A model generated the notes under the pieces. That model made no database searches. It had not been told where the DNA came from and saw only the letters and a program-made list of their open reading frames with translations. Below are positions 3,750 to 20,531 of a stretch of 64,000 bases of DNA, piece by piece. Location of the stretch: positions 1 to 64,000 of the forward strand of contig NZ_JALIQP010000007.1 of the NCBI RefSeq assembly GCF_023566055.1, in the 5' to 3' direction. The translations under genes were made by a program, and so were the position numbers. Numbering within the stretch: the first letter of the stretch is position 1; every line of letters starts with the position of its first letter. This stretch comes from Halosolutus amylolyticus (GTDB lineage: Archaea; Halobacteriota; Halobacteria; Halobacteriales; Natrialbaceae).

Positions 3750-4967
3750 CTACATTGTACAGTCGTACTCTTCACAGGGGAAGAGGCTATCTTCCATGCT
3801 GACGGTATTGATTGGCTCTCGAACGGGATGTTCGTATTCATCAGACCCGACAAGCTCGACGACCTGCATCGGGATTTGTGCCTGATGGTCACATTCACGT
3901 AGTTTAATCGGCACTGGATCGTCGTGTTCGATTCCTTTGAGTCCCGAAACGAGATCGTCGTACGCCATCGACCCCTGCTCTACTGCCGCTAACGCAGGTA
4001 GGAGTGCAGCCCAATACGCAGAAGCAGTATGGTTCCATGGATGTTCGTGATCGTCGCTCACTGCTTGGAAATCTTCAGTGAACTGCTGAACGTTTTCGTC
4101 TTCGTCGTCTTCCCAGGAGAAGAAGCTCCATGCATGATATCCTTCGAGATATTCGCCGAGCGCTTTGATTTCGGTAAATAGAACGGACGTCGACATCGGA
4201 TACTCGTCTGGCAGTCCAACTTCGTGTGCCTGGCGGTGAAATGCCGGACTCGCGTTGCCTAGCACTCGAATCATGATGCTATCAGCGTCCGTGTTTCTGA
4301 GTGTTTCCACCTGTGCGGTTACGTCCTGTGTATCAGGTGCCACCTGAAGATCGTCGACAATTTCGCCACCATCCTGTTCGACGATCTCGTGGGTCGCATC
4401 GCGTACCGCCTGCCCATAGGTATTGTTCACTGTCAGCAGAGACATTCGGGGACCAAAATTATCTAATGCGTGTCTTGTTGTGATTATTTGTTCCATATCC
4501 GAGTTAAGAATAGTTCTGAAGTGATTCTCACGACATTCTTCCGCAGTCAGGTGGTTTGCGGATGCTGCCGGGTTCATTTGAATCACTTCGTTTTGCATCG
4601 CAACTTCACCGGCCTGCTGTGCACTGGCGGAATTGGCAGGCCCAATCAGGACGTCGACGTTTTCTTGCTCAATCAATTCTCGGGCCGCACGGACTCCTTG
4701 TTCGGGTTCGTATTGGGTATCTTGTGCAACCAACTCAATTTCGAAATCGTCGTGTTCACTTTCGAACCGGTTTTTTGCTATTTCGGTACCGTCTTCCATA
4801 GAGATTCCTACCGGACCGATAGTCCCCGTAAGCGGTATTGCCATCCCTATTCTCATCGTGGAATCGCCGCTCGAACTGTTCTCCTGTGTGCATCCGGCCA
4901 ACCCAACTGCACCGGCGGACGCCGTTACTGTCCCCATCGATCTAAGTACGTCTCTTCTCCTCGTCAT
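3750..4967 (-). CDS. Branched-chain amino acid-type ABC transporter substrate-binding lipoprotein
   Basis: A 405-residue periplasmic-binding-protein-like type I receptor (LivK/HAAT family). The start MTRRRDVLRSMG carries a twin-arginine signal followed by a lipobox (V-G-L-A-G-C), so it is exported by Tat and lipid-anchored outside the cell. The mature part has the family pattern I-G-x-A-x-P-L-T-G, V-x-x-L-I-G-P-x-x-S, and T-V-N-N-T-Y-G. A TTG in frame at 4985 is possible, but the ATG at 4967 lies about 35 bases after a TATA-like TATAATTG (reverse strand, 5001-5008), fitting a leaderless message. It lies about 330 bases after livF. The permease genes of this family are about 44 kb away (50539-52448). 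HAAT receptors often bind aromatic or short carboxylic acids, so the ligand need not be an amino acid. Confidence 0.9.
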   Translation of the reverse strand: MTRRRDVLRSMGTVTASAGAVGLAGCTQENSSSGDSTMRIGMAIPLTGTIGPVGISMEDGTEIAKNRFESEHDDFEIELVAQDTQYEPEQGVRAARELIEQENVDVLIGPANSASAQQAGEVAMQNEVIQMNPAASANHLTAEECRENHFRTILNSDMEQIITTRHALDNFGPRMSLLTVNNTYGQAVRDATHEIVEQDGGEIVDDLQVAPDTQDVTAQVETLRNTDADSIMIRVLGNASPAFHRQAHEVGLPDEYPMSTSVLFTEIKALGEYLEGYHAWSFFSWEDDEDENVQQFTEDFQAVSDDHEHPWNHTASAYWAALLPALAAVEQGSMAYDDLVSGLKGIEHDDPVPIKLRECDHQAQIPMQVVELVGSDEYEHPVREPINTVSMEDSLFPCEEYDCTM

Positions 4968-5294
4968 AGTGTTATACAGTACCAATGTTCGGGCATGAAC
5001 TATAATTGTTTGGGAAACTGTGTCATCGACGGACGTCCAGTAGATTCAGGATCAGTCACGACGAATGCGACGCCGACCCGGAACTGTATCCTGTTCGCCA
5101 CTACACGGGCGTAGACACTCCAAAGCAAAATCTACGACAGGATCGCTCCTCGAAAACGAGACGGTATATCCGAGACGATAGCGATTGAATCCGAGATAGC
5201 GAAGCTACCTCGTGAACGAGCATCCGACAATATCGTGATGTCAATAGTAGTCGAACTCAGGTGACGAAACCAAGACCACTACACAACGTATGAA

Positions 5295-5990
5295 TTAGTC
5301 GACACTAATGTGTTGCTCAATGATCTCCGGGCTGTTTTCTAACTCCGTCGCTGCCCCATCGTATACGATTTCGCCGTTAACGAGTATGTAGCACCGGTCT
5401 GCAAGATCCAGCGCGAGTTTCACGTTTTGCTCGACCATGAGGATCGTCAACTCGTCTTTGAGTTCGTGAAGTGCTCTTCGCACGTCGTCGACGATCTTTG
5501 GAGCGAGCCCTTCGCTCGCCTCGTCGAGCAATAGTAGTTCGGTCCCACCGAGCATTCCTCGTCCAATTGCGAGCATCTGTTGTTCTCCTCCGCTCAAGTT
5601 CTCTGCGTTGTTCGACGCGAGCTTCTCGAGCTTCGGAAAGACCGCATAGATGTCCTCTATCGTCCGGTTACCGCCGCGATCTGCTGGTATCTTTAAATTT
5701 TCTTCGACAGTTAGCTTTCCCCATACCTCCCTGTCTTCAGGGACGTACCCGAGACCGGCCTGAATCCGCTCATAAGGTTCCTTGTGGGTAATATCCTCTC
5801 CCTTGAATGTAATCGATCCGCGCCGCGGTTCGTTGAACCCAATTACACTTTTGAGCGTCGTTGTTTTCCCCGCTCCATTTCGACCGAGAATCGTGACGAC
5901 TTCTCCGTCGTTTACCTCGAGAGAGACGTTCTTCAGTGCCTGACTCTGCCCGTAATACGTGTCGATAGCATCAATCGAAAGCATTGTCAT
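5295..5990 (-). CDS. livF: ABC transporter ATP-binding protein LivF
   Basis: A 231-residue ATPase of the HAAT (Liv) family, on the cytoplasmic face of the importer. Walker A GRNGAGKTT lies near residue 36, the signature LSGGEQQML near 133, Walker B ELLLLDEASEGLAP near 150, and the H-loop-region substitution V-E-Q-N near 187, as is usual for LivF. The length is typical. Its start overlaps the livG stop by four bases (ATGA), so the two are co-translated. It is expected to pair with LivG below LivH and LivM, encoded at 50.5-52.4 kb. Confidence 0.95.
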   Translation of the reverse strand: MTMLSIDAIDTYYGQSQALKNVSLEVNDGEVVTILGRNGAGKTTTLKSVIGFNEPRRGSITFKGEDITHKEPYERIQAGLGYVPEDREVWGKLTVEENLKIPADRGGNRTIEDIYAVFPKLEKLASNNAENLSGGEQQMLAIGRGMLGGTELLLLDEASEGLAPKIVDDVRRALHELKDELTILMVEQNVKLALDLADRCYILVNGEIVYDGAATELENSPEIIEQHISVD

Positions 5991-6736
5991 ACCTCTCCTC
6001 CGAGGTACGCATCGCGCACAGTTTCGTCCCGTTGAATCGTCTCCGGTGTTCCTTCCGCGAGAAACTGGCCATTATGGAGAACCATTACCGTCTCTGCAAC
6101 GGTCATCACTACGTCCATGTTGTGCTCGACGATCAGGATCGTGAACTCGTTTGCCAGACTGGTTATTAACTCGAGCAACTCATCGATCTCGACCTGGCTC
6201 ATCCCCGCTGTTGGCTCGTCTAACAACAGTACTTCCGGATCTCGAGCCAGCACGATAGCGAGCTCTAGAGCTCGTTTCTCACCGTGGGATAATGATTTAG
6301 CTGGATGATTGTACTTTTCGTCGAGGCCAACGCGCTCGAGTATCTCCATTGCCTCGTCGTGATACCGCTTTAGCCCGCTCATGTTGTGAAGTACGTCCCA
6401 CCCTTGACCGTCTCTAGCGACGAGCGAGACTTGTACGTTTTCCACGACCTCAAACTCATTAAAAATATTCGTTATCTGGAATGAGCGCGCGACTCCTTTT
6501 TCGACGATAGACTCGGGTGACAGGTTGGTGATCGACTCTTCTCGAAAGTACACGTCTCCTGCTGTCGGGTCGAGCCGCCCCGTGAGCAAATTAAAAAGCG
6601 TCGTTTTCCCTGCTCCGTTCGGCCCAATCAACGCCCGAATCTCTCCGTCTTCGAGTTCGAAACTGACTGAATCGATCGCAGTAACAGCCCCGAACTTTTT
6701 TGTTAGTTTATCGCATCTAAACAATATGTTGGACAT
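5987..6736 (-). CDS. livG: ABC transporter ATP-binding protein LivG
   Basis: A 249-residue ATPase partner of LivF. Walker A GPNGAGKTTLFNLLTGR lies near residue 38, signature LSHGEKRALE near 152, Walker B VLLLDEPTAGMS near 172, and the switch histidine in I-L-I-V-E-H-N-M-D near 204. The LivG-specific C-terminal tail with G-T-P-E-x-I is present. A T-rich TATA-like stretch (minus strand, about 6758-6770) lies some 25-30 bases before the ATG, making this the first gene of a livG-livF unit. The downstream receptor gene has its own promoter-like sequence. Confidence 0.95.
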   Translation of the reverse strand: MSNILFRCDKLTKKFGAVTAIDSVSFELEDGEIRALIGPNGAGKTTLFNLLTGRLDPTAGDVYFREESITNLSPESIVEKGVARSFQITNIFNEFEVVENVQVSLVARDGQGWDVLHNMSGLKRYHDEAMEILERVGLDEKYNHPAKSLSHGEKRALELAIVLARDPEVLLLDEPTAGMSQVEIDELLELITSLANEFTILIVEHNMDVVMTVAETVMVLHNGQFLAEGTPETIQRDETVRDAYLGGEV

Positions 6737-6936: not shown

Positions 6937-7989
6937 TCAGGAGAGTTCTGGAATGACCTCCTCTCCGAACAGTCGAATCGATCTCGCGTTCTCCTCGAAG
7001 TTTAGTTTCGGCTGCCACATTCGTAACAGCATATGAATGTCACAGGCCGCCCCCCGTTCGGCCTCTCGAAGGCGTTCGACTATCGTTTCGGGACTCCCGA
7101 CGAGCAGATTTTCTTTCAGCCGCTCGATTCGTTCTTCACCCAGATTTTCTAAAGTGAACTCGTCAGGATCACGATCTTTCGAGTGTTCGGCATATGCTCT
7201 ACGTGTGTAGAGGAACGACGGAAGCATCGTCTCCCAGGCCTCCTCGTCGGTTTCGGCCACGTAACAGTAGTTCAGGATTCCAACGAGGAAGTCGTCCATA
7301 TCGACGTCGTGTTCAGCCGCAATATAGTTCGACTGGTCTCCCCAATGGTCGAAGCCGTCTTCGCCGGCACCTGCATCTGACGGTTCCCAGCCCATGTTCG
7401 CGTTTCCGATGAACCCATCCCCACGGAAGGCAGCCCTGTCCACTGCTTGCTGAGAGGTCCCCCCGAGATAGATAGGTGGGCCATTTTCAGAAGCTGGCTT
7501 CGGTTCGACTTCCAGATCACTGTACTGATAGAGATCACCATCGTGGGACACCGGGCCTTCGGTCCACGCTTCTCGACAGATGTGAATCGTCTCGGCCACG
7601 TGTTTTGCACGCTCTTTCATGGACACGTCGAACACGTCGAACTCTCGTTCCATGTACCCCGCGCCGATTCCGAGATTGAACCGCCCGTCAGATAACAGGT
7701 CGACTGTTGCCGCATCTTCGGCGAGTTTTATCGGATGCCGAAACGGTGCAAGGAGAACGCATGTACCGATATCGATCGTTTCGGTTGCCGTTGCCAATCC
7801 GGCACAGAGGGTCAGTGGGGAGGGCGAATGCCCGTCAGGCATAAAGTGGTGTTCTGCCGTCCATGCAGCGTCGAAATCTGACTCTTCCGCTACTTGTACT
7901 AGGTCGACGATCTCCTGGTAGACGCCAGCGTTCGTTTTTCCCGACCCCGGCGGATTCTGCGCACTCAGTATTCCATATCCAAACTCCAT
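6937..7989 (-). CDS. Luciferase-like (bacterial luciferase family) monooxygenase, LLM-1
   Basis: A 350-residue TIM-barrel oxidoreductase of the bacterial luciferase family (FMN or F420 dependent). Family marks: W-T-A-E-H-H-F near residue 45, P-F-R-H-P-I-K-L-A-E-D near 83, L-S-D-G-R-F-x-L-G-I-G-A-G-Y near 100, and I-Y-L-G-G-T-S near 175. The C-terminus has the usual L-V-G-S-P-E-T-I segment. A TATA-like TTTAAGTA lies about 30 bases upstream of the ATG, giving a leaderless message. The flavin reductase at 9158 and the riboflavin genes at 9.8-11.2 kb make FMNH2 the likelier reductant, but coenzyme F420 cannot be excluded. The substrate is unknown. Confidence 0.85.
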   Translation of the reverse strand: MEFGYGILSAQNPPGSGKTNAGVYQEIVDLVQVAEESDFDAAWTAEHHFMPDGHSPSPLTLCAGLATATETIDIGTCVLLAPFRHPIKLAEDAATVDLLSDGRFNLGIGAGYMEREFDVFDVSMKERAKHVAETIHICREAWTEGPVSHDGDLYQYSDLEVEPKPASENGPPIYLGGTSQQAVDRAAFRGDGFIGNANMGWEPSDAGAGEDGFDHWGDQSNYIAAEHDVDMDDFLVGILNYCYVAETDEEAWETMLPSFLYTRRAYAEHSKDRDPDEFTLENLGEERIERLKENLLVGSPETIVERLREAERGAACDIHMLLRMWQPKLNFEENARSIRLFGEEVIPELS

Positions 7990-8113
7990 AATACTGTCCT
8001 ATATTTATGATTACTTAAATTTTCGCTCTCGTTTTCGGTTCGTGTCTGGCTCACCTTCCGATTCATACTCCTAGTCTCATCGACGCGTCCTGCTCCGATC
8101 TTTATTTGGAGTC

Positions 8114-8596
8114 TCAAGGGCGATCTCGTCCTCGCCACTCCTCAACCGCGTTTAAGTCCCAGCCCTCGTCAGGACTAACCCGGTAATCGTAATAAATCTC
8201 CGTTGAATCGAATTTCCACCCATCTGAAGTACAACGATACTGGTCCTCGTATCGACCCTGGATCAGCACCGGTCCGTCTGGTGTCACCTCCGGAACCGCT
8301 ACGTACCAGATTCCACTCGCCTCGTCGCCATCGACGTCGATCAGCGGATTATGCATCATATGTGCTGAAAATGTGAGGAGTTCGTCCATCAATCGGCCGA
8401 ACGATTCTATTTCGTCACGGCCGATAAAGGGCGTTTGCTCAACGTTCTGCTGTGGAAATTCGATCGTTGCGTCTTCAGTAAACAGAGTGATAAAACGGTC
8501 CCAGTTGTGAGTGTCGACGGTCGAGGCGTACTCGTACCGCAACTTCCGGATAGCTTCTTTCGCTTCCAGACGTCGAATCCGATCTTCGATATCCAT
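8114..8596 (-). CDS. SnoaL-like / NTF2-fold protein
   Basis: A 160-residue single-domain protein of the SnoaL-like (NTF2 cone fold) group, whose members include hydroxylating, dehydrating and isomerising enzymes for polyketide, steroid and cyclic substrates. Visible are the opening I-E-D-R-I-R-R-L-E-A-K-E-A-I-R-K-L, the D-W-D-R-F-type turn (H-N-W-D-R-F-I-T-L-F-T-E-D-A) near residue 35, and G-R-D-E-I near 63. H-M-M-H-N-P near 82 is reminiscent of SnoaL_4 members. A TATA-like TGTATAAGTG about 30 bases upstream supports the ATG at 8596 over one at 8629. It may rearrange or dehydrate a product of the nearby oxygenases (inference). Confidence 0.75.
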   Translation of the reverse strand: MDIEDRIRRLEAKEAIRKLRYEYASTVDTHNWDRFITLFTEDATIEFPQQNVEQTPFIGRDEIESFGRLMDELLTFSAHMMHNPLIDVDGDEASGIWYVAVPEVTPDGPVLIQGRYEDQYRCTSDGWKFDSTEIYYDYRVSPDEGWDLNAVEEWRGRDRP

Positions 8597-9157
8597 GACA
8601 AGTACTTTGTCAAAAATACACTTATACATTTCCCCGCTCGGATAGCAAGGGCGTCCCCTTCTTGTGACGAGAGGCCCGCAAGCAGTGACGGTGAATAGCT
8701 GGTGTTCGCCCAGTTCGTGGCGGTCAACCGAGCGTTCGATCGAAACTCGACTGCCAAACGTGCCGACGGTACTGCCAAACGTGCCAACGGTAACACGATC
8801 GCAGCAGACGGCTGTTCGACGATTGGATCACATAACTGTGTTCGTAGGTGCTCTCTCGAAGCCATAGCGACGTGAAACACTTTCATCGCCATCGAAAGTT
8901 GATCGTGGGTTCGACGCATCTCAACTGCGCCGATAGAAACGGAGTCGAAGGTCGATCGCCGATAGTTATGAAACCCGAACCGACTTGCTGTTGTCAGAGT
9001 GAGGATCCGAGTGACAATTGGATCGTGAGATGTTACCAAAAGCAGACAGGAGGCAATGCCCGTGCGGGCAGGTGTGTCTTCGACTCGATCGTGTACATCA
9101 GTGTCCATTCGATTGCAACGACGTCGTTTCAGCGGCGTTGCAGGGAACGTTAGCCGA
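8597..9157. other. 560-base gap with no convincing gene
   Basis: Apart from the SnoaL promoter at its left edge and a two-copy 21-bp tandem repeat (8751-8792), I see no gene. Open frames on either strand have protein compositions rich in Arg, Ser and Cys, unlike the acidic genes around them. Confidence 0.5.
8751..8792. repeat. 21-bp tandem repeat, two copies
   Basis: The unit begins ACTGCCAAACGTGCC and ends ACGGT. It occurs at 8751-8771 and again at 8772-8792 with one base different. Its meaning is unknown. Confidence 0.7.
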
Positions 9158-9640
9158 CTACTCGATCGTCCCGTACTCTCCGCGGAAAAACGTCAGCGGT
9201 TTCGCCCCGGATCGGTTCGTGTCCGCTGACTGCACCTCACCAACGTAAATCGTGTGATCGCCTCCGTCATAACTCTCGAAGAGTTCACAATCGACGTATC
9301 CCAGGGTGTTTTCGAAGACTAGTGCTCCAGTTTCCTCTCTTCGGGTCGCTAGATCTTCGAACGGATCGTCCATCTCCTTGTGTGCACCAGCAAACCGATC
9401 AGAAATCTCCTGTTGGTCCTCCGCTAGAATATTCACCGCGAAGTTCTTCGCTTTCCGTGTGAAATCGTGTGAGGTTGTCCCTTTGTCTGCGTTGTACTGA
9501 ACTAATGGCGGATCGAGGGACACAGAAGTGAACGAGTTCACCGTCATCGCGTGGTCGACGCCGTCGTGGTTCATCGTGACTACCGTTACGCCGGTCGCGA
9601 ATGAACCAAGCGTTTCTCGAAAACTGCTGCCGTCGATCAT
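9158..9640 (-). CDS. Flavin reductase (FMN-binding split-barrel)
   Basis: A 160-residue protein of the flavin reductase-like domain family, which reduces free FMN or FAD with NAD(P)H and hands it to a separate oxygenase. Typical features: F-R-E-T-L-G-S-F-A-T-G-V-T-V-V-T at the start, M-T-V-N-S-F-T-S-V-S-L-D-P-P-L-V near residue 32, F-A-V-N-I-L near 67, and the closing F-F-R-G-x-Y-G. A TATA-like CTATAAGTAAA lies about 30 bases before the ATG. Standing between two-component-type oxygenase genes and riboflavin genes, it is the natural FMNH2 supplier for the luciferase-family enzymes here. Confidence 0.88.
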   Translation of the reverse strand: MIDGSSFRETLGSFATGVTVVTMNHDGVDHAMTVNSFTSVSLDPPLVQYNADKGTTSHDFTRKAKNFAVNILAEDQQEISDRFAGAHKEMDDPFEDLATRREETGALVFENTLGYVDCELFESYDGGDHTIYVGEVQSADTNRSGAKPLTFFRGEYGTIE

Positions 9641-9771
9641 TGATACGGGCTACGTTTTGTGAGAGTTTACTTATAGATTTGGGTGTGAACGTCGTGCTAT
9701 CCCAGATACCGATACTTGAAACTGTCTCTCGCGGATCGCTACGGAGCATCGACGGTATACGAGTGGAGCAG

Positions 9772-10470
9772 TCACTGGGAACTTTGAGTGACTGTTCGGA
9801 TGATATCAGCTCCCTCAACATACGGAATACCGTTCTTCTTTCCATATACTTTGGCGTCTTCGGGTGACAGTGCGTCACCCGTTTCGTCGTCAAGCATTTC
9901 ACAGACGACTGCAGCAGGGGCGCGGTTTGCCGCCGTGGCCACTGCAATTGCCAGTTCCGTGTGTCCCTGCCGATCGTCAAGATTATCCGGGGCACCTCGT
10001 AGGAGGTGAACGTGACCAGGCACTTGGAACGTCGTTTCGAAGCTAACCTGCACCGGCTTGAGAGCTGCAGCCCCGAGCTCGCTGATGGTCAGTGCCCTGT
10101 CTTCGTCTGTGATCCCTGTGTAGGTGTCCCGATGGTTCACGGTCAGCGAAAATGACGACCGTTCGTCGTATCCACGGTGATCACAATCAGTAGCAGAGTG
10201 AGTCAGTTCGTCAGCGAGGAATGGAAGCTCCCAGGCGTCTGCGATCCGGTCACTGAGAGCCACACAAATAAGACCGCCAGCGTCGTTCCGAAGTCGAGCG
10301 ACGGATTCGGGCGTAACGTCACCTGCGGGATACACTAAATCGGTCTCTCCCTCACGATCACCATGATCGTGGATGAGGATGGGGTTTCCAGCCCGAAATG
10401 CAGAAATGGCTCTGTCAACCGTGACGTTCGATGTCTCCCAGGTGTGATGAGTGGAATTACTCCGTGACAT
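9772..10470 (-). CDS. ribB: 3,4-dihydroxy-2-butanone 4-phosphate synthase
   Basis: A 232-residue RibB, which converts ribulose 5-phosphate to the four-carbon precursor of riboflavin and releases formate. The active-site signature D-H-G-D-R-E-G-E-T-D-L-V is at residues 34-45, followed by A-R-L-R-N-D-A-G-G-L-I-C. The second half has D-T-Y-T-G-I-T-D-E-D-R and the H-T-E-L-A box near 165. Its start overlaps the end of rbkR by 14 bases, so the two form one transcript with rbkR first. Location inside a flavoenzyme-rich catabolic cluster suggests a dedicated or extra flavin supply. Confidence 0.93.
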   Translation of the reverse strand: MSRSNSTHHTWETSNVTVDRAISAFRAGNPILIHDHGDREGETDLVYPAGDVTPESVARLRNDAGGLICVALSDRIADAWELPFLADELTHSATDCDHRGYDERSSFSLTVNHRDTYTGITDEDRALTISELGAAALKPVQVSFETTFQVPGHVHLLRGAPDNLDDRQGHTELAIAVATAANRAPAAVVCEMLDDETGDALSPEDAKVYGKKNGIPYVEGADIIRTVTQSSQ

Positions 10471-11164
10471 GGATCGTTATGTGATCTCCGTTCGTTAGTT
10501 CGAGTTCGTCTCGAAAGCTGACGGGACCGATGATTTCGATAGCGTCTTCACCGTGATGTGTCCGATCTGGAACGAGCACGTGTGCGGGCTCGAAAACGTC
10601 CTCGGAATCGGCCTCAACCCGAGCAGCGTAGCACGTTGCAGCACCGTACGTTCGCTCGTCGTCACTCCAGCTATCGATATCGATCCCCGATTTGACTTCG
10701 AGAACCGATCGTTCAGGAACGTCCCTCCGAGAGAGTGTAACGTTGAGTGTTCCCGGATATGGCTCGTAGCCGAGACGATTTTTGAATTGCTCCTTGTAAC
10801 CGTCGAGACTGATGTAGTGTCTCGCCTCGTTCAATCCGTCGGTGACCGTTCCCTTGAAGATGAGCGGTGATTTCGAATTGAAGATCTGTTGGTATTGTTC
10901 AAACTCGCGCATGAGAACGTCCGTTCCCGCTGACGTGAGTGTTAACCGCTGTCCGTCTGCAACGATCTCGCGTGAGATGAGGCCCGCAGACTCGAGTTCA
11001 CGCAGTCGCCGGGAAATTGTCTGGGTCGATACGGAGAGCGCCTTCGAAAGATTTCGAGTTGAAACGGTTATCGGAGCGTCTAATGCACCTTCGATGGCAA
11101 GATGTTTGAGTGTTGCCAACTCGTTACAATCGATCTCGTATGACTGGCTGTGTAACGTAATCAT
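10457..11164 (-). CDS. rbkR: RbkR: riboflavin regulator fused to CTP-dependent riboflavin kinase
   Basis: About 235 residues with two domains: an N-terminal winged helix (residues 1-85, with S-V-S-T-Q-T-I-S-R-R-L-R-E-L-E) and a C-terminal DUF120 archaeal riboflavin kinase that uses CTP (F-K-G-T-V-T-D-G-L-N-E-A-x-H-Y-I-S near 102, G-Y-E-P-Y-P-G-T-L-N-V near 132). In archaea this family makes FMN and represses riboflavin genes. The ATG at 11164 (MITLHSQSYEID) is preferred to the one at 11209, because the region between them holds a palindromic operator-like sequence. It is the first gene of the rbkR-ribB pair, with a likely autoregulatory site. Confidence 0.92.
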   Translation of the reverse strand: MITLHSQSYEIDCNELATLKHLAIEGALDAPITVSTRNLSKALSVSTQTISRRLRELESAGLISREIVADGQRLTLTSAGTDVLMREFEQYQQIFNSKSPLIFKGTVTDGLNEARHYISLDGYKEQFKNRLGYEPYPGTLNVTLSRRDVPERSVLEVKSGIDIDSWSDDERTYGAATCYAARVEADSEDVFEPAHVLVPDRTHHGEDAIEIIGPVSFRDELELTNGDHITIHVTE

Positions 11165-11182
11165 GGTTGTGATGCGTATACG

Positions 11183-11208
11183 ATACGGCCGATACGGCAG
11201 CCGTATCA
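11183..11208. promoter_or_regulatory. Palindromic operator-like site in the rbkR-ribB leader
   Basis: GATACGGCAGCCGTATC (11192-11208) is a perfect palindrome about a central A. A third half-site GATACGGCC lies next to it (11183-11191). It sits 20-45 bases before the rbkR ATG, downstream of a TTTTATT TATA-like stretch, where repressor binding would block transcription. RbkR itself is the obvious candidate, but this is inferred from position. Confidence 0.6.
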
Positions 11209-11209
11209 T

Positions 11210-11828
11210 TTCTGTCGTCCGTAATCATTTTGGGAAGCAGGCGCAATAAAACTTTGGGTCGCCTACCACTCCGGCGCGTTGTGACGGTTCCAGACCAGAT
11301 GGTGAGCGAGTTGTCGTCCCGCTATAACGCAATCAGTCCGAAGTCATGAAATTTATCCATCATTATCCCAGGGATTCGATCGGATTCACGCTTCGAACTC
11401 TCGTTGCTCTTCCGAGTTCGTCACTCCTGTCTGACACACCTCTACAATCGCAGAACCGTACTAGGGTGTCGGTTCACGTCCACAGTGACTGCCTCGTCGC
11501 CACTGTATCTCACGGATCGATCGAACTATTACTCGGGCAACAGTTAGAACCGAGCTGTTGCTCTTTCCATGCTACGACCGCTCTCTCCGTCCACGACCAA
11601 ATCGTTCTGTAATAACGAATTCCTCGTCGTGTGGTCACATCCGACACTCGAGACGAGGACGCCGTCTCACACGTGGCAAGCCTTCCGATCGCTTCCGATA
11701 GAATCCACAAGACCATTACAGAGCCTATTAAACACCCGATACGGACTATATACGACATTACAGAACGGCTGTCCCGTCGTACCTGACTCGGTCTGCAAGG
11801 ATACCAATGTCGTGTTGGTCTCGCTTTG
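11210..11828. other. Gap with no recognised gene
   Basis: Holds the rbkR promoter at its left edge. The remainder shows short open frames with non-acidic composition on both strands and nothing recognisable. Confidence 0.5.
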
Positions 11829-11904
11829 TTACCTATGGCTCGGTCCCCCCGCTTGCGGTCTGGTGAATGTCGTCTCGTCAGTGTCGATCTCGTCTCCGGC
11901 GGGC

Positions 11905-12281
11905 AACCGGAGCAGATTCAACCTGACCGGGACCTTATTTACATAGGTATGGATGTAAAAACCTGGGTTAGGCAAGACATTACAAATGTACTATTGTAAA
12001 CTTCGGAGTCGCCGATAGCGACTCGGACAATTTGTGTCGCATCAATAGTAGAGTCTCCGGCCACGGAACAGCGAATGATTGTCTTATCGACAGGTATCCG
12101 GAGATGATTCAACCTGACCAGGAATATTTACACAAGTACGAATGTAAATATCTTTGGGGCAGGTGAGATATTACAAATGTACTATTGTGAATTTGGGGCG
12201 CCGATAGCGGCCCGGACACTTTGTGTCGCATCAATAGTAGAGTCTCCGGCCACAGAACAGCGAATGATTGCCTCATCGACA
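11905..12281. repeat. Tandem pair of about 190-bp direct repeats with inverted repeats inside
   Basis: Copy 1 (about 11905-12092) and copy 2 (about 12096-12281) align with offset 189-191. The 62 bases at 12031-12092 and 12220-12281 are nearly identical. Each copy holds TTTACA and TGTAAA facing each other across a short spacer (11938-11959; 12127-12148), a palindrome-like TTACAAATGTACTATTGTAA (11980-11999, degenerate at 12171-12190), and a hairpin with loop CGATA (12006-12024; 12195-12213). The minus strand remains partly open through both copies. Confidence 0.8.
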
Positions 12282-12469
12282 GAAATCTCGTTGCTGGTCT
12301 CTGAAGGGCAGAGCACCAGTGTAAAGAGATGGTGTGGCCGGTCGACTGGGTGATTCTCGGGGAAGATCAGGTAATTCGGCGGCGACCAATCGCGTGTCCT
12401 GGATCCTTGTTTGAACAGCTGTTCGGTAACATACCACAGTATACGTTCGCTATTACCGTACTTGTGTCG
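12182..12469 (-). pseudogene. Open frame without a start, probable gene remnant
   Basis: A 95-codon minus-strand frame with haloarchaeal-like composition (includes NYLIFPENHPVDRPHHLF and AIIRCSVAGDSTIDATQ), ended by TAG at 12182-12184 and bounded upstream by a TGA. It contains no ATG. Its last third is duplicated downstream in copy 1 of the 190-bp repeat (frame ending with TAA at 11939-11941). A third shorter echo follows, ending at 11829-11831. I do not recognise the family. Confidence 0.4.
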
Positions 12470-12735
12470 TCACACGGGTGAAATGCCGTATATATCCCGT
12501 TCGGGCGCTGATTCGGGGGTCATTGCTAACGAGAGTAGCGCAACTATCGTTATTTAGAGCCGGTGAGGGAGACATTCGTTCGTAGTTATCCGGTATTATC
12601 GAACAAAATTGCTTACCCTCCGTCCGAAGAACACTTATCAGTTCCGTTACCTTCCTTTGACTCTACGGTCTTCAATTCGCACACGATCTGTGGGTTAATT
12701 ATTTATAAGGTTCTACCCAACTGTTAACTGGAACC

Positions 12736-13506
12736 ATGGCATCGGATGATCTCGGTAAAAAAGAGCAAGAACTCAAGAACAAATACGTAGAGCGTGTCGG
12801 ATACTGGCCCGAAGCGTACGATGAGTGGGTTCGGTTAGACCCAGATCTCTTCGAGGAGTATCTGGAACTGGCTGCACACCCGTGGGAAAATAACGCGATC
12901 CCACGAAAAAATAAAGCACTCATCAGAGTAGCGATCGACGCTTCAGTCACACATCTCTACGAGGGGGGGCTCAGAGATAGTATTCGGCTTGCGTTCGAGG
13001 AAGGAGCCACTGTTGACGAAATTGTAGACGTAATTGAAAGTATCACGTTCGTATCGATGCACACCATAATCGACGGGTTGCCGCTGCTTGAAGACGAAGT
13101 CGGTCTCCCGGACGACGTGTTGGATGAGGAACGTGCCGAACAGGACAGAGTCCGCGAGTACTTCAAGGAGAGTCGTGGATGGTGGCATGAACTTTGGGAG
13201 CCCCTCCTCGCTCTCGATCACGAATTCCTGGAAAAACACACCGATGTTTCGGGCCATCACAGCAAAAACTGGTCACTTGACCCGAAGCTGAAACAGTTCA
13301 TCTATATTGCGATAGATATGTCCACAACCCAACTGTACACAAAGGGTGCACGAGTTCATATCGAGTCGGCCATCGAACATGGCGCGACCCGGGACGAACT
13401 CATCGAACTTCTCGAGTTTGTTAACCACCAGGGGTACGATACGATGCGGTTCGCTCTCCCAGTCCTGGCAGAGGAAGCACGGAGAGCTGGCAAGTACGAC
13501 GACTGA
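12736..13506 (+). CDS. Carboxymuconolactone decarboxylase family protein, two CMD domains
   Basis: A 256-residue protein with two repeats of the AhpD/CMD helical fold: residues 35-115 (L-I-R-V-A-I-D-A-S-V-T-H-L-Y-x-x-G, then A-F-E-E-G-A-T-x-D-E-I) and 160-250 (F-I-Y-I-A-I-D-M-S-T-T-Q-L-Y-x-x-G, then A-I-E-H-G-A-T-R-D-E-L). No cysteine occurs anywhere, so it cannot be an AhpD-type CxxC peroxidase; a decarboxylase or lactone-handling role, or a structural role, is more likely. A TATA box TTTATAAGG is 27-35 bases before the ATG (leaderless). It is followed 13 bases later by the quinone oxidoreductase, in one probable operon. Confidence 0.82.
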   Translation: MASDDLGKKEQELKNKYVERVGYWPEAYDEWVRLDPDLFEEYLELAAHPWENNAIPRKNKALIRVAIDASVTHLYEGGLRDSIRLAFEEGATVDEIVDVIESITFVSMHTIIDGLPLLEDEVGLPDDVLDEERAEQDRVREYFKESRGWWHELWEPLLALDHEFLEKHTDVSGHHSKNWSLDPKLKQFIYIAIDMSTTQLYTKGARVHIESAIEHGATRDELIELLEFVNHQGYDTMRFALPVLAEEARRAGKYDD

Positions 13507-13519
13507 GGCGGAAGAGCTG

Positions 13520-14503
13520 ATGATGAAGGCAGTTCGCTACCACGATTTTGGTGGTCCATCAGTCAGTAGCGTCGATGAGATTGAACCCCTAACCCCCCGC
13601 GAACAGGAGGTCTCGATCGACGTGCGAGGCATCGGTATTAACCCGTCGGATATCCTCCGACGAACGGGGGCATTTCGCAACGAACTCCCCCTGATACCCG
13701 GGAAAGACGTCGCCGGAATCGTTACAGGAACCGGTGACGACGTCGATCGGTTCGAGCCCGGCGACCGAGTGTTCGGGTACATCCCTCACTCGAACGTCCC
13801 TGGATCGGGCACCGATCGGCAGGGAACGTACGCTGAAAACGTCGTCGCACTCACTGACCGACTAGCTCACCTTCCGTTGCCGGTATCTTTCGAGTCGGGT
13901 GCAGCGATCCCTGCAGTCGCGGTGACCGCTTGGGAGGCACTGGTCCGATACGGTGGGTTGCAACCAAGCGAGACCTGTCTGATTCATGGCGGAAGTGGTG
14001 GCGTTGGTCACGTTGCCGTCCAACTGGCCTCCACGATGGGAGCGAACGTCGTTGCCACTGCTGGTGACCGTGAGAAGCGACAACGAGTCAGTGAGCTAGG
14101 TGCCGATCGAGTGCTCGATTACAGTCGCCCGGATCTAGCCGACGGCATTCTCGAGGAGTGTTCGAACCGTCCAGCCGTCATTCTGGACCATCGGGTTGGT
14201 GACTATTTACAGCTAGATGTAGACGTAATCGATCAGCACGGGACGATTGCTATTATTGGTGGCTACGAGGACAGTCCACGGATAGATATTTCGACGGCAC
14301 TCCTGAAAAACGTCACCATCGTTCCCTATACGGTTTCCCTGACCCGGAACATTGGGACGATACTCGAGCGAATAGCTGCACTACTACGGGAGAACAGACT
14401 CTCAGTAGATGTCTGGAAAACGTTTCAACTAAAGGAAGTGGCCGACGCCCAGCGAACCGTCTCGAATGAGAGCTTCGTCGGAAAAGTCGTGATGGTTCCG
14501 TAA
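13520..14503 (+). CDS. Quinone oxidoreductase-like zinc-independent MDR dehydrogenase
   Basis: About 327 residues of the medium-chain dehydrogenase/reductase family, closest to NADPH:quinone oxidoreductases. The GroES-like part carries P-G-K-D-V-A-G-I-V and D-R-V-F-G-Y. The Rossmann part has H-G-G-S-G-G-V-G-H-V-A-V-Q-L-A near residue 150 and G-A-D-R-V-L-D-Y near 195. Zinc-binding cysteines are missing, as in the quinone reductase branch. Starts at 13520 and 13523 (MMK) are both possible; GGCGGAAG just before may serve as a ribosome site. It probably reduces a carbon-carbon double bond or quinone, paired with the preceding CMD gene. Confidence 0.85.
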   Translation: MMKAVRYHDFGGPSVSSVDEIEPLTPREQEVSIDVRGIGINPSDILRRTGAFRNELPLIPGKDVAGIVTGTGDDVDRFEPGDRVFGYIPHSNVPGSGTDRQGTYAENVVALTDRLAHLPLPVSFESGAAIPAVAVTAWEALVRYGGLQPSETCLIHGGSGGVGHVAVQLASTMGANVVATAGDREKRQRVSELGADRVLDYSRPDLADGILEECSNRPAVILDHRVGDYLQLDVDVIDQHGTIAIIGGYEDSPRIDISTALLKNVTIVPYTVSLTRNIGTILERIAALLRENRLSVDVWKTFQLKEVADAQRTVSNESFVGKVVMVP

Positions 14504-14616
14504 CTCAAACCCCGATGTATCGACACGGACGGAACGATACACTATTACTTGGAATTAAACCTCAGATATAGATAAAAATAAAAGGGGACGCAGGCGTTTC
14601 ACTGCTCCTTCGGGGA

Positions 14617-15585
14617 TCAGAAATACTCCGGATAGTGTCTTGGCCACAGATCTAGCTGCCTGTCCAAACCATCGAGGTCGTGTGCTGACGTGAGTGCAAT
14701 GACCTGGTCAAAACCCTGTTTTTCGTATTCCTTGAGCCCGTCTCGTACGTCTTCGATACTTCCGATGATATAGTTTTCTTCGTAGTGTTCCTTCGGCCAC
14801 GTCGTATGTTGCTGGTAGACCTTGAGCTGGCGTTCTTTTGCCAGCTCGGTATCCGCATTCGGAACGAGATGAGTGTAACTGACGGCGAGTTTGGCGTATG
14901 CTGCCGGGTCCTCGTTTTCGGATTTCAGGTACGACGCGAACGCCTTCCAGTCGTGTTCCAGTTCGTCTGCCGTCAACCCGGGTGCTAGCCACCCATCTGC
15001 GAACCGCATTCGCTCTTTGATCGCCATAGGAACGAATCGCGATCCATCCTCGCGATCGACTCCACTCCCTGCGAGCAGAATTTCTGGAGGGCGGTTCAGT
15101 CGTGGCGTGATCGTTAGATTCTCCACTTGATAATAGTCGCCGTCAAAGGTGACTTCCTCTTCGTGGAGGAGGCGATACAACAGTTCGATTCCTTCAGTGA
15201 ATCGTGACGACCGCTCCTCGAACGGTACGTTTGCGCTATCGAACTCCGCCTCATTGTAACCGAGCCCGACACCGAGTGTCACTCGACATGATGAAAGATA
15301 CTGGACCGTTGCGACGCGTTTTGCGAGTAGTACTGGATTCCGAAGTGGAAGAATGAGGATCCCGGTCCCGAGCGGTAAGCGTTCGGTCGCACCGGCCATC
15401 TCCGCAACTGTCGTCAGCGGATCCATAAACGACGTTTTGTAAGTTGGTGGACGCACGAGATGTTCGGGCATCCAGAGACCACCGAACCCATTTTCTTCTA
15501 CAGTTTGTGCGAACTGTTTCAGCCGCTCCGGCGGAACTGCGAACTCGTCTCTGGCAAACGATGGGAAGGATATGCCGATTTTCAT
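14617..15585 (-). CDS. Luciferase-like monooxygenase, LLM-2
   Basis: A 322-residue luciferase-family oxidoreductase: M-K-I-G-I-S-F-P-S-F at the start, G-L-W-M-P-E-H-L near residue 35, L-P-L-G-T-G-I-L-I-L-P-L-R-N-P near 70, L-G-V-G-L-G-Y-N-E near 103, and G-S-I-E-D-V-R near 280. The length is close to that of F420- or FMN-dependent family members of the TIGR03619 kind. A TATA-like GACTTAATAG lies about 30 bases upstream. It is transcribed in the same direction as the lactonase candidate that follows on its other side. Confidence 0.85.
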   Translation of the reverse strand: MKIGISFPSFARDEFAVPPERLKQFAQTVEENGFGGLWMPEHLVRPPTYKTSFMDPLTTVAEMAGATERLPLGTGILILPLRNPVLLAKRVATVQYLSSCRVTLGVGLGYNEAEFDSANVPFEERSSRFTEGIELLYRLLHEEEVTFDGDYYQVENLTITPRLNRPPEILLAGSGVDREDGSRFVPMAIKERMRFADGWLAPGLTADELEHDWKAFASYLKSENEDPAAYAKLAVSYTHLVPNADTELAKERQLKVYQQHTTWPKEHYEENYIIGSIEDVRDGLKEYEKQGFDQVIALTSAHDLDGLDRQLDLWPRHYPEYF

Positions 15586-15661
15586 ACAGAGTGACGTACA
15601 GCGGTTCTATTAAGTCTTTGCGTTCAAAATCTCCGATGAAATCGCCGCGGCGGGTCCCCCA

Positions 15662-16429
15662 TCAGTGCTCGGTAAGCCGCTCTAAATCCGCCGGATCATG
15701 GAGGATGCTCACGGTTGCCCCCTCCGTCGCGGCCATATGTCTGACCGATCGAATTGATTCGAGTGTCTTCTCGACTGACCAATCGAACGTCATCCACAGC
15801 TCCTGTTCGTACGCTTCGCGACAGTAGGCGACGTCAGCAGCCAAGATCACCGTTTCGTTGGGACCGAGAGTCACGGCCACCGACTGATGGCCGGGTGTGT
15901 GTCCAGGTGTAGGAACGCAACGTACACTACCGTCGCCGAATAGATCGTACTCACCGCTAATGGCGCTCACGTCGTATTCCCGAAGCGGGGCAAAGTCGTC
16001 GACGAGGTAAAACGGATGTTGCTCTTTCTCCGGCCACCAGGCGTATTGAAGTTCGTCGCGCTGGACGACGAATTCGGCCTCGGGAAACGCATCGATATAA
16101 CCGGTGTGGTCGAAATGGAGGTGGGTGAGGATTACGTAATCGATCTCGGATGGTTCGTACCCGAGATCCGCGAACTGAGCGGTCGGCGGCTGGGTATTTT
16201 TTATATCTGTTCCCGCAACCATTCCCTCGAGATGTGAAGCTCCGTACGTTTCTGGATCCTCGACGAGCTCGTGGTTGAGTCCAGTGTCGACCAGCACGGT
16301 ACCCTCGGGATGGTCGATGAGGTAGACTGGAATCGAACACGTGAATGATCCAGTATCGAGACCTACAACGGGTGTATATGGAAACGTCAAGTTCGCCGTG
16401 TTTAACGCATGCAGCTGTGTTTCGCTCAT
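15662..16429 (-). CDS. Metallo-beta-lactamase-fold hydrolase, lactonase-like
   Basis: A 255-residue MBL protein of the AHL-lactonase-like branch. The dinuclear zinc motif H-L-H-F-D-H is at residues 103-108, with a further histidine in P-T-P-G-H-T-P-G-H near 178 and the bridging Asp in L-A-A-D-V-A-Y near 200. I-P-V-Y-L-I-D-H-P-E-G near 33 also fits lactonases. In this setting opening a lactone made by a Baeyer-Villiger-type oxygenase is an attractive role (inference). A TATA-like GATTTTAATACG lies upstream of the ATG. It stands about 75 bases before LLM-2. Confidence 0.8.
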   Translation of the reverse strand: MSETQLHALNTANLTFPYTPVVGLDTGSFTCSIPVYLIDHPEGTVLVDTGLNHELVEDPETYGASHLEGMVAGTDIKNTQPPTAQFADLGYEPSEIDYVILTHLHFDHTGYIDAFPEAEFVVQRDELQYAWWPEKEQHPFYLVDDFAPLREYDVSAISGEYDLFGDGSVRCVPTPGHTPGHQSVAVTLGPNETVILAADVAYCREAYEQELWMTFDWSVEKTLESIRSVRHMAATEGATVSILHDPADLERLTEH

Positions 16430-16526: not shown

Positions 16527-17681
16527 TCACGTACTCGACGGGCCGAGCACGCGATCGGCGATGATCTTTCGGTGAATTTCGTTTGTCCCTTCACCGATCG
16601 TCAACAGCTGCGCATCGCGAAGATATCGTTCGGGATTGTACTCTTTCGTGTACCCGTTCCCACCAAGAATCTGAATCGCCTCATGGGCATTTTCGACGGC
16701 TGCTTCGCTGGAATACAGCTTGGCGATGCTCTCTTCCCGGCCCTTGTCCCCATGGCCGCGGTCAGCAAAGTCCGCGGCTCGCAGGGTAAGGAGGTTAGCG
16801 ATGTCTGCCTTGACTTCCATCTCTGCAATTTTCCAGCGAATCCCCTGAAAGTCACCGATCGGCTGTCCGAACTGTTCTCGCTCTTTCGCATACGCTGTTG
16901 CGTCTTCGACGGCCGCACGTGCCATTCCCGAACACCGTGCAGCGACGTTGACGCGCCCGACGTTGAGGCCCTGTACCACATGCATGAATCCTTCGTTCTC
17001 CTCGCCGATCAGGTGTTCTTCCGGGACGCAAACGCCGTTCAAATGGAGATCACAGGACTGGACGCTATTGAGCCCGAGCGTATCCCATTCTTTCCCGATT
17101 TCGAAACCATCGGCATCGGTTGGAACGAGAAACGCGCTTATGTTGTGGTACCGATCACTTTCGGGGCCTGTCTTCGCAAGCACGGAAATGACGTCGGCAT
17201 TCGGTGAGTTCGTAATCCAGCGTTTTTGACCGTTGATGACCCACTCGTCACCGTCACGCTCTGCCTGACACTCCATCGCTGCATTGTCACTTCCCGCGTT
17301 TGGCTCGGTCAGGCCGAAGGCTCCGACCGTATCGTACGTCGCCATCTCGGGGAGATAGGTCTCTTTGAGGTAGTCGTTCCCGTATTTCTGGATGAGCGAG
17401 GCGGTGATAACGTGAACATTGATCGCGCTTCCAAGCGCCATCAGTCCTTTCGAAAGCTCCTCGATGATCAGTGCATATTCGACCATTCCGTATCCCAGAC
17501 CACCATACTCCTGGGGCAACGTCGTTCCCATGATCCCCTGGTCTGCGAGTTGTTGGAGCAATTCCGCTGGATACTCGTGGCCGCGATCGAGTTCCCTGGC
17601 GACCGGTTCGACTTCCTCTTCGACAAATACCTGAATAGCATCTCGCACTTGCCGCTGTTCTTCCGTTAGTTCGAAACGCAT
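16527..17681 (-). CDS. Acyl-CoA dehydrogenase (ACAD-1)
   Basis: A 384-residue FAD-dependent acyl-CoA dehydrogenase that introduces the alpha-beta double bond. Features: A-F-G-L-T-E-P-N-A-G-S-D near residue 125, W-I-T-N-S near 158, R-E-Q-F-G-Q-P-I-G-D-F-Q-G-I near 270, and the C-terminal Y-L-R-D-A-Q-L-L-T-I-G-E-G-T-N-E-I-H, where the Glu of G-E-G-T is the usual catalytic base. Length is normal. A strong TATA (TTATATAATTC, minus strand near 17713) precedes the ATG. Electrons would pass to ETF (etfB at the window's left edge). Confidence 0.92.
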   Translation of the reverse strand: MRFELTEEQRQVRDAIQVFVEEEVEPVARELDRGHEYPAELLQQLADQGIMGTTLPQEYGGLGYGMVEYALIIEELSKGLMALGSAINVHVITASLIQKYGNDYLKETYLPEMATYDTVGAFGLTEPNAGSDNAAMECQAERDGDEWVINGQKRWITNSPNADVISVLAKTGPESDRYHNISAFLVPTDADGFEIGKEWDTLGLNSVQSCDLHLNGVCVPEEHLIGEENEGFMHVVQGLNVGRVNVAARCSGMARAAVEDATAYAKEREQFGQPIGDFQGIRWKIAEMEVKADIANLLTLRAADFADRGHGDKGREESIAKLYSSEAAVENAHEAIQILGGNGYTKEYNPERYLRDAQLLTIGEGTNEIHRKIIADRVLGPSST

Positions 17682-17936
17682 AGTGTGGTATCATAATAGA
17701 CTTAGCCGAATTATATAAGCTTTCCTACGCCGACGAGTGTACGGCCGAACGAGTCGATCACTCCAGTCGCTTTTCGATGAACTGCCGGATTTAGGAAGGT
17801 GATCCAGACACAGGGTGTCTGCGGTAATCGAACACCTTTCTTCTCCGCTACGATCGTTCTGTTGTATCTTTTCCCTGATCGTCAGTTCTGATATTTGGTG
17901 GGTGAGATACCTGGTTATCAGTTAGGAAGGTCGACA

Positions 17937-19115
17937 TTACTCGGTATCGTATTCGTAGAATCCGGCTCCAGCTGCTACCCCCGCATGACCCTCCTCAACC
18001 AACTGGACGAGGTATTCGGCGGGTTCGTAGCGGCTTTCACCGTATTTTTCGTGGAACGTAGAGAGCTTCTGTACGATCGTCCCCAAGCCGATTTCATCAG
18101 CACGTTCACAGATTCCAACCGGAAAGCCTGCGCCCAGTTGCATCCCTGTATCTATATCTTCGACAGTGGTGACGTCCTGTTCAAGTAGTTCGGCAGCTTT
18201 GTTGGCCATACAGGCTTCGACATGGAGCGTATCGAACGTGACGCCATCGCCCTGCTCATACATCGGGCCGTCACCGTTCTCGTAATCGTAGTACCCGACG
18301 CCTGCCTTGCGGCCGTACTCGCCGGCGTCAACCCGTTCTTGCATAACTGGTGGTATCGGGATGTCTCCCGCCTGTCGAACATCGTATGCAATGTCGATGC
18401 CGGACAGATCGGCGAGTTCGAACGGTCCCATCGGGTAGTTCCGACAGTGTACCATTGCAGCATCAGCTTCAGGTATCGTGGCCTCACCACGCGAAACCAT
18501 CCACGCAGGTTCGTCGATGAACCCGTGCAGTATGTTGTTTACGACGAACCCGAATACGTCCTTTTGAACCTCGATCGGCTTCTTGTCGAGCGAGTTGACG
18601 AACGAAAGTGCCCTGTCGACTGTCTGGTCACTCGTTTTCGCACCGTAGATGACCTCGACGAGATCCATCTTCACTGGCGGATTGAAGAAGTGGAGACCGA
18701 CCGCTCGTTCCGGTCGCGATATTTCGCTCGCTATCTTCGACACGGAGAGACTCGAGGTGTTCGACGCGAGAATGGCATCTGTCGATGCGTGGCCGTCAAT
18801 ATCCTCGAAGATTGTTCGCTTCAGCTCCAGATCCTCAGAGACTGCTTCGATGACGACGTCCGCGTTTTTTACTGCGGATGCTGTTTCGGTCTCCGTGTCG
18901 ATACGACCGGCAACCGTATCTACTGACTCGATAACTCCATTTTCCGCCAACTTGTCGAGACTCCATTCGATACGTCGGTACCCTTCGGCGAGCGCGTCCG
19001 AATCAACGTCCTGGAGTGTGACCGAGTATCCAGCCATCGCGGTGATCTCCGCGATACCGTGGCCCATTGTCCCGGCACCAATGACTGTGACGTTCTGGAT
19101 GCTTTCGACCGTCAT
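17937..19115 (-). CDS. 3-hydroxyacyl-CoA dehydrogenase (1)
   Basis: A 392-residue NAD-dependent enzyme oxidising 3-hydroxyacyl-CoA. The Rossmann motif V-T-V-I-G-A-G-T-M-G-H-G-I-A-E lies near residue 8, the acyl-CoA catalytic segment G-L-H-F-F-N-P-P near 139, and the NAD-domain D-x-x-E pattern follows. A second C-terminal 3HCDH domain continues from about 190 (G-F-V-V-N-N-I-L near 180; P-M-G-P-F-E-L-A-D near 230). It is a stand-alone enzyme without a crotonase fusion. The ATG at 19115 (MTVESIQ) is chosen over 19142. It follows the CitE-like gene by about 60 bases on the same strand. Confidence 0.92.
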   Translation of the reverse strand: MTVESIQNVTVIGAGTMGHGIAEITAMAGYSVTLQDVDSDALAEGYRRIEWSLDKLAENGVIESVDTVAGRIDTETETASAVKNADVVIEAVSEDLELKRTIFEDIDGHASTDAILASNTSSLSVSKIASEISRPERAVGLHFFNPPVKMDLVEVIYGAKTSDQTVDRALSFVNSLDKKPIEVQKDVFGFVVNNILHGFIDEPAWMVSRGEATIPEADAAMVHCRNYPMGPFELADLSGIDIAYDVRQAGDIPIPPVMQERVDAGEYGRKAGVGYYDYENGDGPMYEQGDGVTFDTLHVEACMANKAAELLEQDVTTVEDIDTGMQLGAGFPVGICERADEIGLGTIVQKLSTFHEKYGESRYEPAEYLVQLVEEGHAGVAAGAGFYEYDTE

Positions 19116-19173
19116 GAGAGATAATCCTAGCTCATCCATCATAATTCCGTCGATAGGTAATGGGAGTAAACAG

Positions 19174-20052: not shown

Positions 20053-20531
20053 GTCTGGAGATCAGCGGCGTCAGGTGCGTGCTTCATCAACGCGACCCGC
20101 GTGCACGAACAGACGGTTTCGCCGTCCTGATTGATACCGCGGTGCTCGAATGTCACGATGCCGCTGTCATCGCGGGACTCGCTAGTTCGCTTGTCGATAA
20201 TTTCCGTTTCAGAATATACCGTATCGCCGACGAAAACCGGACGTGGAAACGAGATTTCTTCGAACCCGAGATTGGCCACCGTCGTTCCCATCGTCAGGTC
20301 AGTTACCTGCGCACCGACCACCACTGAAAGGGTAAACATACTGTTCATCAATCGTTCGCCGAACTCCGTCTCCTCAGCAAAATGGCGGTCAAGGTGGAGT
20401 GGTTGCATATTCAGTGATGACAACGTCCAGAGCGTATTGTCGAACTCGGTCATCGTTCGTCCTGGCCGGTGCTCGTAGATATCACCCACTTCTAGCTCTT
20501 CGTAGTACTTGCCACGTGCTTGGTATCGCAT
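20049..20531 (-). CDS. MaoC-family enoyl-CoA hydratase (1)
   Basis: About 160 residues with the single hot-dog fold of MaoC hydratases: Y-Y-E-E-L-E-V-G-D-I near residue 8, L-N-M-Q-P-L-H-L-D near 40 (the hydratase motif has the Asp replaced by Asn, while the His is kept), and V-F-V-G-D-T-V-Y near 100. The ATG at 20531 (MRYQARG) is chosen because the upstream extension has non-MaoC composition and a TATA-like CTTATTTCC lies just upstream of it. Translation-coupled to the CitE-like lyase, it may hydrate a mesaconyl- or itaconyl-type CoA ester. Confidence 0.82.
   Translation of the reverse strand: MRYQARGKYYEELEVGDIYEHRPGRTMTEFDNTLWTLSSLNMQPLHLDRHFAEETEFGERLMNSMFTLSVVVGAQVTDLTMGTTVANLGFEEISFPRPVFVGDTVYSETEIIDKRTSESRDDSGIVTFEHRGINQDGETVCSCTRVALMKHAPDAADLQT

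Follow-up and report, generated by a model that had tools for sequence, protein, structure and literature searches.

The first 64,000 nt of contig NZ_JALIQP010000007.1 of Halosolutus amylolyticus (assembly GCF_023566055.1; positions 1–64,000, forward strand; hereafter the window) probably encode a two-component monooxygenase system that depends on reduced flavin mononucleotide (FMNH2) and has a dedicated flavin supply. The putative oxygenases belong to the luciferase-like monooxygenase (LLM) family, and the supply genes, a flavin reductase (FR) gene and second copies of ribB and rbkR, lie together near the left end of the window. Pfam searches confirmed, in name and position, every gene that an initial annotation of the window had singled out: four LLMs, FR, ribB–rbkR, a metallo-β-lactamase-fold (MBL) protein, a SnoaL-like protein, a double carboxymuconolactone-decarboxylase-like (CMD) protein and a quinone reductase. 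The genes proposed to form the flavin supply, and the four LLM genes, are as follows:

6937..7989, minus strand: LLM-1 (PF00296, 222 bits; EHHF motif)
9158..9640, minus strand: split-barrel flavin reductase, FR (PF01613 Flavin_Reduct, 140 bits)
9772..10470, minus strand: RibB, 3,4-dihydroxy-2-butanone 4-phosphate (DHBP) synthase, second copy (Pfam, 179 bits)
10457..11209, minus strand: RbkR, helix-turn-helix (HTH) plus CTP-dependent riboflavin kinase, second copy (PF01982, 129.8 bits)
14617..15585, minus strand: LLM-2 (PF00296; nearest model TIGR03619, F420-type; EHL in place of EHHF)
46601..47929, minus strand: LLM-3, about 442 aa (PF00296, 121 bits; EHHF luciferase-type motif)
49512..50498, plus strand: LLM-4 (F420/Mer-like; TIGR04024, under the cut-off)

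The genes, their sole or second-copy status, the intact RibB motifs and the recurrent FR–RibB–LLM linkage are established by the sequence; from these we infer cofactor use, partner choice, regulation and substrate.

Flavin Reductase and Second Riboflavin Genes

FR is the sole PF01613 protein in the 4.59 Mb genome; one PF03358 reductase is encoded elsewhere (contig C4). The other adjacent ribB and rbkR pair, also intact, is found at C2:475790–476877. The window copies of rbkR and ribB share a 14 bp overlap, with the FR gene 131 bp further downstream. The window RibB retains the DREGETD acidic loop and the GHTE motif, residues that we take to be catalytic, and scores above the cut-off of TIGR00506 (207.2 against 177.45 bits). 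RbkR has matches to an HTH at the N-terminus and to the PF01982 kinase domain, and falls below the cut-off of the NF010762 equivalog (217.5 against 279 bits). Tree reconstruction placed the window RibB outside the well-supported clade of chromosomal RibBs of its family, and it is therefore no recent duplicate. Together with the recurrent linkage described below, the unique FR and the second ribB–rbkR copy strengthen the earlier proposal that a luciferase-type system here has its own flavin supply. A shared RbkR operator was rejected, as no convincing motif was common to the upstream regions of the second and chromosomal rbkR genes that were compared, and none was evident by eye upstream of FR or the LLMs.

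The LLM genes are clustered above chance. PF00296 matches occur at 17 places in the genome, four of them inside the window; given one such place in the window, the probability of at least three more is about 0.001.

Predicted Cofactor Preference of the Four LLMs

The EHHF motif is carried by LLM-1 and LLM-3; it is replaced by EHL in LLM-2 and missing from LLM-4. Most LLMs of comparable modules in other genomes also have EHHF, and the majority of the 17 LLMs encoded by H. amylolyticus do not. In sequence, LLM-1 comes nearest to the solved structures of bacterial luciferases and RslO1; diketocamphane monooxygenase stands much lower in the list. An AlphaFold model of LLM-1 (pTM 0.86) gave TM-scores of 0.82 to RslO1, 0.78 to LuxA and 0.71–0.75 to the F420-dependent Mer. 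In both the sequence and the fold comparison, the type II Baeyer–Villiger monooxygenase (BVMO) structure 4uwm ranks well below the luciferases. LLM-3 also matches luciferase-type FMN enzymes best, the diketocamphane monooxygenase 4uwm coming only fifth (E 8.6e-9); its AlphaFold model was set aside because of low confidence (pLDDT 56). A scan of genome contigs with LLM-1 returned three distant matches only, in records labelled as bacterial metagenome-assembled genomes.

The best solved match of LLM-2 is an F420 enzyme, with non-F420 LLMs close behind, and its score against TIGR03619 (164.6 bits) is a near miss of the cut-off of 166.9 bits. LLM-4 reached 219.9 bits against TIGR04024, short of the cut-off of 345.4 bits. 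For LLM-2 and LLM-4 an F420-type enzyme is the likelier reading, which leaves LLM-1 and LLM-3 as the only two good FMN candidates. Even for LLM-1 one result weighs against FMN, in that its best NCBIfam model is the F420 family TIGR03619 (160.4 bits, just below the cut-off). Given these near-miss scores, LLM-1 and LLM-2 may still use F420.

The Probable Oxygenase Partner of the Flavin Reductase

Among 391 haloarchaeal genomes, FR was found in 20 (E ≤ 1e-30) and LLM-3 in eight (E ≤ 1e-40). The nearest relatives of FR occur in two genomes of different families, G313 (72% identity) and G026 (61%), and in both an LLM-3 orthologue (53–57%) lies close by, at 4.6 kb (G313) and 8.4 kb (G026) from FR. 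A second RibB is located 2.8 kb beyond LLM-3 in G313, and an RbkR–RibB pair 0.6–2 kb beyond it in G026, where FR also adjoins a SnoaL_4 gene, comparable to the SnoaL_4 gene of the window. The RibB tree groups the second copies of G313 and G026 as sisters (support 95/85) but not their chromosomal RibBs, a pattern that, in hosts of different families, fits transfer as a unit. In a test over 390 genomes the co-occurrence of close FR and LLM-3 orthologues gave p = 2e-4, and both genomes carrying the two have them within 12 kb of each other. Because the nearest FRs lie near LLM-3 orthologues with a second RibB, LLM-3 is, on comparative grounds, most likely the oxygenase partner of FR and RibB in the window. 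The initial annotation had placed the oxygenase system at 6937–16429; that FR and RibB serve an LLM agrees with this analysis, while comparative genomics points to LLM-3 (at 46.6 kb) as the partner and not specifically to LLM-1 or LLM-2.

Several observations count against this pairing. Under the broad cut-offs the co-occurrence of FR and LLM-3 reaches just p = 0.04. RbkR, RibB and FR adjoin one another in the window, but 36 kb separates FR from LLM-3, and two close LLM-3 orthologues (in G036 and G373) have no FR or RibB nearby. For LLM-1, the nearest relatives (47–49%) likewise have no FR or RibB in their vicinity and adjoin MR_MLE genes; LLM-1 as the sole partner of FR was rejected for lack of a nearby reductase in these relatives, and it is a plausible second user of reduced flavin. 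The closest of them (L076 in G311, L077 in G200) adjoin genes of the mandelate racemase/muconate lactonizing family and an IclR regulator.

Related Gene Groups on Plasmids

Similar gene groups were found on plasmids. A plasmid of Natrinema halophilum carries FR (56%), three LLMs, RbkR, several acyl-CoA dehydrogenases (ACADs) and a Liv transporter; none of its three LLMs matches LLM-3. On a plasmid of Rhodococcus sp. USK10, genes for an alpha/beta hydrolase, FR, a RibB-family protein and an LLM-3 homologue (38%) are consecutive, with a BVMO-like FAD monooxygenase gene upstream of the run and a CoA-transferase gene downstream. About 8 kb of a Sulfitobacter alexandrii plasmid holds FR (41%), an LLM (27% to LLM-3), MBL (28%) and RibB (31%). 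A Peribacillus frigoritolerans plasmid has FR, LLM, MBL (39%), ACAD, hydratase and CoA-transferase (CaiB) genes, and a Pseudonocardia plasmid combines two LLMs with a RibB-family protein, ACAD, CoA-transferase and a Liv transporter. An FR/RibB/LLM theme recurs across replicons with varying parts.

A finding that tells against a common role in flavin supply is that the RibB-family proteins beside FR or LLM on six sampled actinobacterial plasmids (L123, L141, L142, L143, L169, L170) have lost both DREGETD and GHTE. These cases therefore cannot be plain flavin supply, a role that was rejected for them, and the proteins are probably non-catalytic members of the RibB fold.

Second RibB Copies in Other Settings

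A second RibB was found in seven of 80 sampled haloarchaeal genomes, a fraction that is no population rate, as the sample was chosen to take in all carriers of FR or LLM-3. Three of the seven have an LLM gene no more than about 10 kb away, three are near other flavoprotein genes and one stands alone. The last four limit the association: a second RbkR–RibB pair in G181 (L135) adjoins genes for electron transfer flavoprotein (ETF), an acyl-CoA ligase and other acyl-CoA enzymes, with no LLM within 10 kb; the copies in G046 (L136) and G213 (L138) are beside berberine-bridge-type FAD oxidases; and that of G119 is the solitary one. Of four RibBs sampled from rhizobial plasmids, three lie in sugar clusters and weigh on the same side, while the fourth, from Mesorhizobium, has an LLM two genes away. 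A universal RibB–LLM linkage was rejected on account of the rhizobial sugar clusters and the haloarchaeal copies by ETF or berberine-type oxidases, and an extra RibB may be a general sign of gene clusters with a high demand for flavin.

The G181 arrangement bears on an alternative in which the flavin genes of the window serve FAD-rich β-oxidation (ACADs and ETF) and no oxygenase, the LLMs being F420 enzymes that share the island by chance. An ETF gene at the left edge of the window would suit this, as would the fact that LLM-1, LLM-2 and LLM-4 score best against F420 families in NCBIfam, and the scarcity of EHHF among the 17 LLMs of the genome. ACADs, however, need no PF01613 reductase, yet FR tracks LLM-3 and RibB, and the two LLMs with EHHF match FMN luciferases best. 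We consider this alternative unlikely, and favour an FMNH2-dependent system.

Catabolic Neighbours and Candidate Substrates

The remaining catabolic and transport genes of the window are:

3750..6736, minus strand: Liv-type ABC transporter, substrate-binding protein and two ATPases (binding protein by Pfam; ATPases read from sequence, similar to Natrinema Liv ATPases)
8114..8629, minus strand: SnoaL_4 protein, NTF2-like (Pfam)
12736..13506, plus strand: double CMD protein (Pfam; nearest solved structure 2q0t)
13526..14503, plus strand: dehydrogenase of the medium-chain dehydrogenase/reductase (MDR)/quinone-reductase type, 19 bp after the CMD gene
15662..16429, minus strand: MBL hydrolase of the acyl-homoserine lactone (AHL) lactonase type (HxHxDH, second His, Asp, DxxY)
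16527..20723, minus strand: ACAD, 3-hydroxyacyl-CoA dehydrogenase, CitE-like lyase and MaoC hydratase (same strand as, and upstream of, MBL and LLM-2)
50539..52466, minus strand: Liv-type permease pair (strand shared with the Liv ATPases)

The genes at 16527..20723 support the CoA-dependent catabolic setting that had been proposed, and the CMD protein, as had been noted, contains no cysteine. The two parts of the Liv transporter are 44 kb apart on one strand with catabolic genes in between, and look like an operon split by insertion.

The MBL protein has a full metal site and the AiiA-type Tyr (HLHFDH 103, GHTPGH 176, DVAY 199, LHDP 243), and lactonases lead its matches among both models and solved structures. 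Its scores fall far below the cut-offs of the NCBIfam AttM/AiiA models (169 against 390 bits; 121 against 375 bits). Its gene lies between those for LLM-2 (76 bp downstream) and ACAD (97 bp away). This position and active site would suit a type II Baeyer–Villiger route, in which an LLM turns a cyclic ketone into a lactone, the MBL opens it and β-oxidation shortens the hydroxy acid. A lactone route gains some plausibility from the LLM and MBL pairs that recur in Peribacillus and Sulfitobacter, with FR in both and RibB in the latter; the match of LLM-3 to diketocamphane monooxygenase and the BVMO-like gene near the Rhodococcus FR–RibB–LLM-3 run point the same way. Set against it, none of the LLMs tested has diketocamphane monooxygenase as its closest match, and LLM-2, the neighbour of MBL, is the less likely FMN enzyme. 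The nearest relative of LLM-2 lies by iron-alcohol-dehydrogenase-like and short-chain dehydrogenase/reductase (SDR)-like genes, with no MBL match nearby, and LLM-2 with MBL was rejected as a conserved pair for this reason. Ketone to lactone followed by opening by the MBL is one candidate chemistry, and we regard it, like the route as a whole, as somewhat doubtful.

The FR/LLM-3/RibB modules of G313 and G026 are surrounded by genes for amidases, hydantoinase B, creatininase, arylmalonate decarboxylase and amidohydrolase, and these amidase-rich surroundings of LLM-3 speak for other substrates there. The oxygenase of the window might accordingly cleave an N-heterocycle or amide-type substrate and no cyclic ketone, as RutA does, with MBL and β-oxidation forming a separate route. 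RutA/RutF is a known pair of an LLM and a PF01613 protein, and the FR of the window has a RutF-like score. Near the module in the window, though, the search turned up neither an amidase nor an amidohydrolase gene, and the Natrinema, Peribacillus and Pseudonocardia relatives are accompanied by ACAD, CoA-transferase or lactonase-type genes, which leaves such a substrate improbable.

Replicon Context

The contig carrying the window (C7) is 232.7 kb long, and is likely a plasmid or other secondary replicon because the window has ParA-like, integrase and transposase genes. A Fic-domain protein (62028–63230) is encoded near the ParA-like gene (60626–61525). On a mobile, LLM-rich secondary replicon the genes could be accidental neighbours that form no functional module, and the 17 LLMs of the genome, the transposase and integrase genes, and the 1.5 kb gap with a change of strand between RbkR and CMD would agree with that. 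We judge it very unlikely, as the FR/RibB/LLM linkage recurs in a further two haloarchaea and on several plasmids of bacteria, and the linked RibBs of G313 and G026 are sisters.

Proposed Pathway

In the favoured two-component system, RbkR and RibB would increase local riboflavin and FMN, and FR would reduce FMN to FMNH2 with NAD(P)H. The FMNH2 would diffuse to LLM-3, and probably also to LLM-1, which with O2 would oxygenate an organic substrate that probably enters by the Liv-type transporter. The products would pass to the adjacent CoA-dependent degradation genes. A broader proposal, which we put forward tentatively, is that RbkR–RibB–FR form a mobile, self-regulated FMN-supply cassette for LLMs, an archaeal counterpart of lux-rib, within a previously undescribed haloarchaeal oxygenase pathway that is possibly the first archaeal type II Baeyer–Villiger route. 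A literature search limited to open-licence PMC papers found no description of an LLM monooxygenase or Baeyer–Villiger system in haloarchaea. If the proposal is true, FMN oxygenases among the many haloarchaeal LLMs would be recognisable by a linked PF01613 protein and second RibB. It would also suggest that in archaea, as in luminous bacteria, FMNH2 oxygenases are limited by their flavin supply, a bottleneck encoded in genes, and that a catabolic island with a high flavin demand can be recognised by its second RibB copy.

Comparison with Known Systems

Adjacent rbkR and ribB genes (HVO_0326, HVO_0327) are part of the normal riboflavin set of Haloferax volcanii (PMC8305020). The window pair resembles such housekeeping genes in adjacency and domain make-up, but differs in being a second copy, with a RibB outside the chromosomal clade of its family. 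The MBL protein shares the metal-binding motif and DxxY with the AttM/AiiA AHL lactonases, its best-matching family, and differs in its low score and in a catabolic setting without quorum sensing. Pyridine monooxygenase PyrA/PyrE was considered as an analogue and set aside.

In Pseudomonas putida, the reductase Fred that serves the diketocamphane monooxygenases is chromosome-coded and the lactone opens spontaneously (PMC5192521). These enzymes are alike in fold and in the need for a separate FMN reductase, and LLM-3 has a detectable match to 4uwm, but they are the closest match of no LLM tested. For the luciferase-like monooxygenase RslO1, the flavin reductase RslO2 is the presumed partner (PMC7221717). 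With the two-component LLM monooxygenases (bacterial luciferase, RslO1/RslO2, RutA/RutF, SsuD and SfnG) the window system shares the PF00296 fold, EHHF (in LLM-1 and LLM-3) and a PF01613 reductase; it differs in being haloarchaeal and in having second flavin genes attached.

Riboflavin genes stand just downstream of luxG in Photobacterium, an arrangement interpreted as providing luciferase with FMN (PMC8272222). In both lux-rib and the window a luciferase-family FMNH2 oxygenase (putative in the latter), a flavin reductase and riboflavin genes are linked. The window differs in its archaeal RbkR–RibB, its PF01613 reductase, the absence of aldehyde genes and the catabolic island around it. The contiguity of oxygenase, reductase and rib genes in lux-rib is also not seen in the window, given the distance to LLM-3, and in G313 and G026 the corresponding genes span about 12 kb. 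By analogy, the window system would be a functional parallel of the Photobacterium lux-rib arrangement and not a member of it.

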